Shown here piece after piece: positions 3,725 to 5,011 of a DNA stretch of 5,087 bases. Under the pieces are notes generated by a model. That model ran no database searches. It saw nothing but the letters and a program-made list of their open reading frames with translations, and was not told where the DNA came from. Each line of letters starts with the position of its first letter. Position 1 is the stretch's first letter. A program made the translations under genes and the position numbers. This DNA comes from an uncultured Sphingomonas sp. (GTDB taxonomy: Bacteria; Pseudomonadota; Alphaproteobacteria; Sphingomonadales; Sphingomonadaceae), in NCBI GenBank assembly GCA_946886645.1, contig CAMPIY010000135.1, positions 1-5,087 of the forward strand. The letters run 5' to 3'.

Positions 3725-5011
3725 TCAGACCTCCAGCTTTGTGATGCAGCGTTCCTCGACGATCGCGAGTCCATAGGCCGAAAGGCCGACCGGCGAGTGT
3801 GTCGTGTTGCTGAGCAGGATCATGTCGTGAATGCCGAGCGCCGCGAGGATCTGCGCGCCGATACCGTAACCACGCAGCGCCGCGGTCGATTCGACGCCCT
3901 TGCCCGAGCGAAGGTCGGTGGCCCGGCTGAGCGAGCCGGGGGCGGCGGCGTGGAGGGCGACGATCACGCCCGACCCTTCCGCCTCGATCATCGCCATCGC
4001 TCCGTCGAGCAGGCCGGCGCGCGGCGACCGTTCGCCGAGCACGTCGGCGAACAGGTCGATCGAGTGCATCCGGACCAGGGTGGGCCGCGACGGGTCGACA
4101 TTGCCGTGGACCAGCGCGAGTTGCTCCTCGCCGCTGGCCTTGTCGCGAAAGACCTGGGCGGTCCATTGCGCGCCGGACCGGGCGGCGAAACGGGTTTCCG
4201 ACACCCGTTCGACCATATGATCCTTCTTCAATCGATAGGCGATAAGGTCGCGGATCGTGCCGATCTTCAAGCCGTGGAGCTTGGCGAACTCCATCAGATC
4301 GTCGAGCCGGGCCATGGTCCCGTCCTCGCGCATGATCTCGCAGATCACGCCCGACGGGTTGAGCCCGGCCAAGCGGGCGACGTCGACCGCCGCCTCGGTA
4401 TGCCCCGCGCGGACCAGCACGCCGCCCGGGCGGGCGACCAGCGGGAAGACATGGCCCGGCGACACGATCGCGTCGGCGCCGTTGGCGGCATCGATCGCCA
4501 CCGCGATCGTCCGCGCGCGGTCGGCGGCGCTGATTCCGGTTGTCACTCCGTCTCGTGCTTCGATCGAGACGGTGAAGGCGGTCTCCATCCGCGTCGCGTT
4601 GATGCGCGCCATCGGCTCCAGCCCAAGCTGGTCGACCCGCTCCTTGCCGAGCGCCAGGCAGATCAGGCCGCGGCCATGGCGGGCCATGAAGTTGATCGCG
4701 TCCGGCGTCGCCATCTGCGCCGGAATGACCAGGTCGCCCTCATTCTCACGGTCGTCGTCGTCGACCAGGATGAACATCCGACCGTTGCGCGCCTCGTCGA
4801 TGATCGCTTCGGCGCCGACCAGAACCTCCTGCACGCCGCCGTCGATCAGCTTTTCAAGGCGCACCAGCGTGTCGGCGGTCGGGTTCCAGTCCGACGCGCC
4901 CAGCTTGCGCAAGCTGTTGGGGTGAAGGCCGGCGGCCCGCGCCAGCCCGCTGCGGCTAGCCTCGCCGGAGTCGACGAGGGCGGTGAGTTTATCGATCAAA
5001 GTCGTGGACAT
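3725..5011 (-). CDS. ribB: 3,4-dihydroxy-2-butanone 4-phosphate synthase with N-terminal HTH and degenerate RibA-like C-terminal domain
   Basis: A 428-residue, three-part cytosolic protein. Residues 1-57 form an XRE/Cro-like helix-turn-helix (core 'SRSGLARAAGLHPNSLRKL', 19-37, then 'NPTADTLVRLEKLI'). Residues 63-260 are DHBP synthase, converting ribulose 5-phosphate to 3,4-dihydroxy-2-butanone 4-phosphate and formate. Its motifs are intact: the acidic loop 'DDDDRENEGDL' (84-94), 'HGRGLICL' (112-119), 'GISAADR' (159-165), 'PGHVFPL' (185-191), 'RAGHTEAAVD' (201-210, H204) and 'GVICEI' (221-226, E225). Residues 262-428 align with GTP cyclohydrolase II, but the zinc site is gone: 'HSECLTGDVFGS-RCDCG' is replaced by 'HSIDLFADVLGERSPRAG' (316-333), and the Arg-rich catalytic segment is 'HAAAPGSLSRAT'. 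Only the 'YGIGAQIL...YGLAIVE' part survives. This resembles the RibBX type known in proteobacteria, so a separate ribA is expected elsewhere. ATG 5011 is preferred over an in-frame TTG at 5017. First gene of the ribB-ribH unit. Confidence 0.92.
   Translation of the reverse strand: MSTTLIDKLTALVDSGEASRSGLARAAGLHPNSLRKLGASDWNPTADTLVRLEKLIDGGVQEVLVGAEAIIDEARNGRMFILVDDDDRENEGDLVIPAQMATPDAINFMARHGRGLICLALGKERVDQLGLEPMARINATRMETAFTVSIEARDGVTTGISAADRARTIAVAIDAANGADAIVSPGHVFPLVARPGGVLVRAGHTEAAVDVARLAGLNPSGVICEIMREDGTMARLDDLMEFAKLHGLKIGTIRDLIAYRLKKDHMVERVSETRFAARSGAQWTAQVFRDKASGEEQLALVHGNVDPSRPTLVRMHSIDLFADVLGERSPRAGLLDGAMAMIEAEGSGVIVALHAAAPGSLSRATDLRSGKGVESTAALRGYGIGAQILAALGIHDMILLSNTTHSPVGLSAYGLAIVEERCITKLEV
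3729..3734 (-). promoter_or_regulatory. ribosome binding site of ribH
   Basis: GGAGGT on the minus strand, 6 nt before the GTG start at 3722 and inside the last codons of ribB (CTG-GAG-GTC-TGA). It is the strongest Shine-Dalgarno match among the window's genes. It fixes the non-ATG start of ribH and indicates that translation passes directly from ribB to ribH. Confidence 0.85.

Follow-up and report, generated by a model that had tools for sequence, protein, structure and literature searches.

An N-terminal Cro/XRE-type domain on RibBX and a palindromic candidate operator at ribB suggest autoregulation of a riboflavin enzyme in sphingomonads

We analyzed a stretch of 5,087 nucleotides from an uncultured Sphingomonas sp. 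(assembly GCA_946886645.1, contig CAMPIY010000135.1), hereafter the window. A gene on the minus strand (3725..5011, ATG at 5011) encodes a protein of 428 amino acids, defined from the list of open reading frames, from matches to PF00926 and PF00925, and from alignment with 6mnz and 4i14. This protein combines, all on the minus strand, an N-terminal Cro/XRE-type helix-turn-helix (HTH) domain (residues 1-57; 4841..5011), a RibB domain, or DHBP synthase (residues 68-259; 4235..4810; PF00926, E = 7.7e-83), and a degenerate GTP cyclohydrolase II (GCHII)-like domain, RibX (residues 268-420; 3752..4210; PF00925, E = 3.2e-31). These two Pfam families account for its enzyme domains, and no riboflavin kinase domain was found in the protein. 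The gene for lumazine synthase, ribH (3303..3722, minus strand; PF00885, E = 2.7e-41), was recognized from its translation and from the ribH gap in relatives; it starts with a GTG directly after the ribB stop codon and is probably co-transcribed with HTH-ribB. The remainder of the window includes the 3' part of a tRNA (1-51, plus strand), a 2OG-Fe(II) oxygenase-like protein (120-857, plus strand), an EamA transporter (1526-2425, minus strand) and an open reading frame that by eye resembles a small voltage-gated ion channel (~2494-3296, plus strand).

The enzymatic part of the protein was compared with its relatives. The RibB motifs (DDDDRENEGD and RAGHTEA in the window) are intact, and the aligned proteins carrying the HTH (HTH+) also preserve DDxDRENEGD and RxGHTEA. 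The three zinc cysteines of GCHII were present in the RibBA outgroups of the same alignment (segment ECLTGDVF..RCDCG), but the complete set was found in no HTH+ row, including the window; one locus (L083) keeps a single aligned cysteine. Moreover, 6mnz, whose structure is titled RibBX, was the top match of the window protein both by sequence and by Foldseek. Since the zinc-cysteine set of the C-terminal RibA-like domain is broken, sequence comparison identifies the enzyme as an HTH domain followed by an intact RibB and a degenerate RibA-like domain, i.e., as RibBX rather than plain RibB or RibBA. A first-pass annotation of the window had proposed an HTH fused to RibB: the fusion holds, but the enzyme label had to be changed. 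We searched 21 HTH+ genomes, a set that does not include the source genome of the window, and all 21 encode an additional PF00925 protein of higher score, which is a candidate RibA. Sixteen of them encode no PF00926 protein other than HTH-RibBX, and in these genomes the regulator would therefore be the working enzyme itself.

The N-terminal extension was then characterized. Its core, SRSGLARAAGLHPNSLRKL, lies within residues 1-57. Taken alone, the window domain gave only sub-threshold matches: HTH_3 in Pfam (E = 0.13) and the RstR repressor in NCBIfam (E = 0.0089). Among the 26 relatives scanned, 22 matched HTH_3 (best E = 2.2e-5) and 23 matched HTH_26, a Cro/C1-type family (best E = 1.4e-4), with matches listed at E ≤ 1. 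Using Foldseek, the predicted domain matched mainly Cro/CI/XRE proteins (SinR, P22 c2, 434 repressor and CapH) with a TM-score of about 0.6 and a best E of 0.26, and no match reached E = 0.001 or better. AlphaFold2 models, built from shallow alignments, present three helices, yet none is regular at residues 31-38, where the recognition helix is expected. Foldseek/VIA matches of the modelled domain were mostly XRE proteins. The predicted fold is consequently only partly as anticipated, the three helices and the XRE matches agreeing with an HTH and the segment 31-38 not. Overall, the profile matches of the relatives, the Foldseek results and an hhalign link to stand-alone HTH proteins support the earlier assignment of residues 1-57 to a Cro/XRE domain.

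This extension is widespread among related proteins. Residues 1-64 were matched by 2,666 of 2,707 candidate proteins at E ≤ 0.01 (best 120 listed), and 56 of the 80 loci listed in our search of genome contigs carry the extension. Across 81 sequences, the codons of the HTH core (20-52) differ by 0.19, 0.13 and 0.51 at codon positions 1, 2 and 3, respectively: the extension is under constraint at the protein level. Residues L23, A24, G28, L29, H30, N32, L34, R35 and W42-A46 were invariant across 44 proteins. The loss of the putative recognition segment in close relatives, which had been named as evidence against an HTH, was not seen among them.

A palindrome lies directly upstream of the gene: ATCACATTNNAATGTGAT (5024..5041; ATCACATTATGATGTGAT on the minus strand) matches the consensus at 15 of 16 positions and ends 12 bp before the ATG. 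It was defined from the sequence and by comparison across loci, initially upstream of 56 named loci and then in 84 distinct upstream regions of HTH-ribB, the window included. These regions derive from 89 HTH+ loci (the window, the 56 named loci and 32 further loci) from which five duplicates were removed; one locus (L061) does not encode the HTH and was excluded. The palindrome scored 16/16 in 18 regions, 15 in 28, 14 in 17, 13 in 12, 12 in 6 and 11 in 3, with positions 2-5 (CACA) and 12-13 (TG) invariant. The right half of the site is damaged in L040. The three sites of 11/16 (L029, L030 and L103) equal the best chance score found among the loci without the HTH (HTH-). In the two Novosphingobium loci, L029 and L030, the site reads CACACAT-N4-ATGTGTG with its outer positions changed symmetrically, which constitutes a lead for HTH-operator co-variation.

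We further analyzed the specificity of this candidate operator. Over the 694 kb that the 56 loci span, sites scoring 13/16 or more were found 51 times near ribB starts and nowhere else, whereas 20 permuted palindromes yielded 0-2 matches each in 55 of these loci. The strict form TCACATNNNNATGTGA was found in 12 of 19 genomes, in a single copy each and every time at ribB. When allowing up to three mismatches, the best site of the genome was the one at ribB in 17 of the 19 genomes (all but G012 and G015). At this level we counted 94 operator sites in the 19 genomes, compared with 16 matches to the reversed pattern. Additional weak targets beyond ribB may therefore exist; no common theme was seen among four of the better extra sites.

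We then compared HTH+ and HTH- loci. In our search of the order, 189 of 296 genomes presented matches and the 30 best were retained as HTH+ loci, a sample that favours the best-scoring matches. Seven of the 189 presented weak matches corresponding to RibBX without the HTH and were moved to the HTH- search. The latter covered 50 of the 107 genomes without match, in batches of 20 (plus those seven) and 30; RibBX was detected in 24 genomes of the first batch (27 in total) and in 26 of the second, giving 50 HTH- rows. Loci representing a second copy of RibB (L139-L142 and L172) were excluded from these rows; their best operator scores are 8-10. An operator of at least 12/16 was found within 100 bp of 81 of the 84 HTH+ RibBX genes, against none within 300 bp of the 50 HTH- genes of the same order. 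Likewise, CACA-N6-TGTG was present at 83 of 84 HTH+ and 0 of 50 HTH- RibBX loci. When a rescan of the 50 HTH- loci was extended 120 bp into the match, the highest score was 11/16. On reading the HTH- loci, we observed that the ribE gene preceding ribB often abuts or overlaps it. In 16 of 56 HTH+ loci, the 700 bp upstream lack a ribE match, and the operators of these loci still scored 11-16; in L083 the operator is kept beside a divergent gene. By eye, this divergent gene resembles a flavin reductase.

The distribution of the HTH was examined on a tree of RibBX (139 rows), the second one built, which omits L055, L136-L138 and L172 as well as rows that were short or identical. On it, the HTH is gained or lost about eight times, and at least five of these changes are forced by well-supported branches. 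Across several of these changes, the domain and its operator are present or absent together. It had been suggested that the fusion could be clade-wide, which our data support with a qualification. In our sample of the class, HTH-RibB was found in three genomes, all of one order, but several lineages within the sphingomonad clade lack the HTH. The simplest reading of this pattern is one gain followed by several losses, although the domain may have been gained repeatedly.

The position of the operator suggests how it might act. In 62 of 84 loci, 10-14 bp separate its end from the ATG. A TTG starting 8-4 bases before the operator was found in 48 of the 84 loci, compared to 2-12 in four control windows; the window itself has no clear TTG at this place. 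The -10 region of HTH-ribB promoters is not a canonical TATAAT. Shine-Dalgarno-like words were found in 8 of 63 genes with a short gap and in 16 of 21 genes with a long gap (P = 1.3e-7; Fisher test; kinship ignored). The 12-bp gap of the window (5012..5023, minus strand) contains no such word, which fits leaderless translation and agrees with the other loci. Because of the placement of the TTG and the scarcity of Shine-Dalgarno-like words in short-gap genes, the operator seems to overlie the promoter, with transcription beginning just after it and leaderless in the short-gap class. A scan for half-sites revealed a second one in phase with the main site in 60 of 84 loci, overall, with distances from the main centre of 31-33 bp (55 loci), 52-53 bp (5 loci) and 20 bp (4 loci). 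In the window it lies at 5076..5083, with an implied centre 52 bp from that of the palindrome. No second half-site was found at up to one mismatch in 17 of the 84 loci, and 7 presented only unphased ones. Since these spacings are close to whole helical turns, the phased half-site suggests a second unit bound on the same face of the DNA.

At the sequence level, a single chain therefore joins a catalytic domain to a predicted DNA-binding domain, and a matching DNA site accompanies it. RibB is a dimer. The RibB part of HTH-RibBX, which makes dihydroxybutanone phosphate, should dimerize in the same way, and because of this dimeric state the two N-terminal HTH domains of one dimer could each contact one half of the two-fold palindrome ATCACATTNNAATGTGAT in the promoter of ribB(-ribH). 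Binding would probably gain cooperativity from a second unit on the upstream half-site, which is in phase with the palindrome. Bound on the core promoter, immediately before the start codon, HTH-RibBX would repress transcription, exerting a negative feedback that apparently concerns its own gene alone. From these features we infer DNA binding, repression and cooperativity, and possibly tuning by a ligand, which could be ribulose 5-phosphate or, within RibX, a flavin or a nucleotide. HTH-RibBX very probably controls its own production, and we consider it likely that the protein acts as a trigger enzyme: it would bind its own ribB-ribH promoter, which is often leaderless, and most likely repress it. 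Comparative genomics strongly supports the proposal that the DNA-binding domain allows the enzyme to regulate the operon encoding it, since in the loci examined the operator was found only with the HTH, and its strict form once in each of 12 of 19 genomes.

Alternatively, the fusion could bind the operator but activate the promoter of its gene, acting for example from the half-site upstream. Two features are compatible with this possibility: in 55 of 84 loci a half-site precedes the main centre by 31-33 bp, and the -10 region is poor, resembling that of activator-dependent promoters. However, the most conserved site lies on the probable core promoter next to the start codon, and the apparent spacing of the promoter boxes is ordinary, such that the distortion imposed by some activators would presumably not be needed. 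Since the operator overlaps the promoter, this geometry makes repression more likely than activation, which we regard as unlikely.

It is also conceivable that the palindrome belongs to another transcription factor and that the HTH is a passenger. The linkage of site and domain is a correlation, and a single event at each gain or loss could have transferred the entire 5' end of ribB, pairing them mechanically. Several observations make this very improbable. Wherever the strict site was found, it occurred at ribB only, unlike the sites of a global regulator; the operator persists where the upstream gene differs; relatives devoid of the HTH retain ribB but not the operator; and the HTH core is strongly constrained. 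CRP/FNR-type sites read TGTGA-N6-TCACA, and the order TCACA-N6-TGTGA observed here is the reverse. Finally, the N-terminal domain might be a structural or oligomerization module that does not bind DNA, as could be suspected from the irregular segment 31-38 of the AlphaFold2 models and from the weak Pfam scores of single sequences. The domain is, however, related by profile to stand-alone HTH proteins, among them P0145, which passes the Pfam cut-offs of HTH_31 and HTH_3, and it co-occurs with an operator-like palindrome; this leaves the scenario hardly any credence. Self-repression by HTH-RibBX remains our preferred reading.

We searched for relatives of the HTH outside RibBX. Stand-alone XRE-like proteins (P0121-P0145; L084/L182 and L181) belong to the same HTH family (hhalign, 99.4%). 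We found 25 of these free proteins of 63-106 amino acids and, unlike HTH-RibBX, those that we read contain no enzyme domain. Two of them (P0125 and P0136; 65-81 amino acids) are named DHBP synthase/GTP cyclohydrolase II, apparently by annotation spill-over from HTH-RibBX. In L084, a 72-aa relative (1453-1671, minus strand) lies beside a divergent open reading frame, and an 18-bp palindrome, ATCGCACTTCAGTGCGAT (1730-1747), is located upstream of its ATG with the same 8-2-8 layout as the HTH-RibBX operator. The same HTH profile also matched the N-terminus of CoaBC in two loci (L180 and L183, minus strand; genomes G338 and G388), and a search with the domain of L180 retrieved two HTH-CoaBC proteins: P0147, and P0146, whose domain is 100% identical to the query. 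HTH-CoaBC is likewise a cofactor enzyme, but of the coenzyme A pathway, and no clear palindromic operator of this type was seen upstream of it. Both genomes carry a RibBX without the HTH. The CoaBC fusions hint that cofactor enzymes can acquire this small HTH domain as an adaptable accessory. One tentative scenario, which we hold to be possible but rather doubtful, is that a phage-like XRE autoregulator was captured with its promoter and operator at ribB in an ancestor of the sphingomonad clade and fused to RibBX, giving a riboflavin feedback sensor in the role of an FMN riboswitch. The dead RibX would bind a flavin or nucleotide and set the DNA affinity of the dimer, and the HTH cassette would have been captured separately by CoaBC.

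In idea, the closest precedent is an enzyme-regulator fusion of archaea, RbkR. This HTH-riboflavin kinase is tabulated as a bifunctional gene regulator and enzyme in PMC8305020, and is named as a regulator of a riboflavin operon in PMC10746257. RbkR and HTH-RibBX are alike in that an N-terminal HTH precedes an enzyme of the flavin pathway, a likeness in idea for which no homology of the enzyme parts is claimed. In contrast to this archaeal riboflavin kinase, HTH-RibBX is an alphaproteobacterial DHBP synthase whose only strict site is its own promoter. RibBX proteins of Shewanella, Acinetobacter, Bradyrhizobium and Aeromonas are described in PMC10012899 as a functional RibB with a GCHII-like X domain devoid of zinc-binding residues and of GCHII activity; the Shewanella X domain is said there to regulate RibB activity by an unknown mechanism. 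RibBX relatives without the HTH align from about residue 61-70 of the query in most rows, and the sphingomonad form adds the HTH and the operator. Among the matches listed in our search of the open-licence PMC literature, no HTH-RibB fusion is described. In one clade, self-repression would also give the inactive RibX domain a possible purpose, as a candidate sensor.

We finally searched for other means of riboflavin control. FMN riboswitches (RF00050) were detected with Infernal, using stricter filters that lose some weak matches, in none of the 21 HTH+ genomes and in 3 of 24 genomes without the HTH. Because no riboswitch was detected in the HTH+ genomes searched, riboflavin synthesis may be controlled by other means there, and the proposed self-repression of HTH-RibBX, with a named site, offers a concrete and testable answer. 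It would represent a protein-based control, whereas the FMN riboswitch is RNA-based. In three genomes without the HTH (G311, G323 and G410; L143-L145), the FMN riboswitch is located near a second, shorter ribB.
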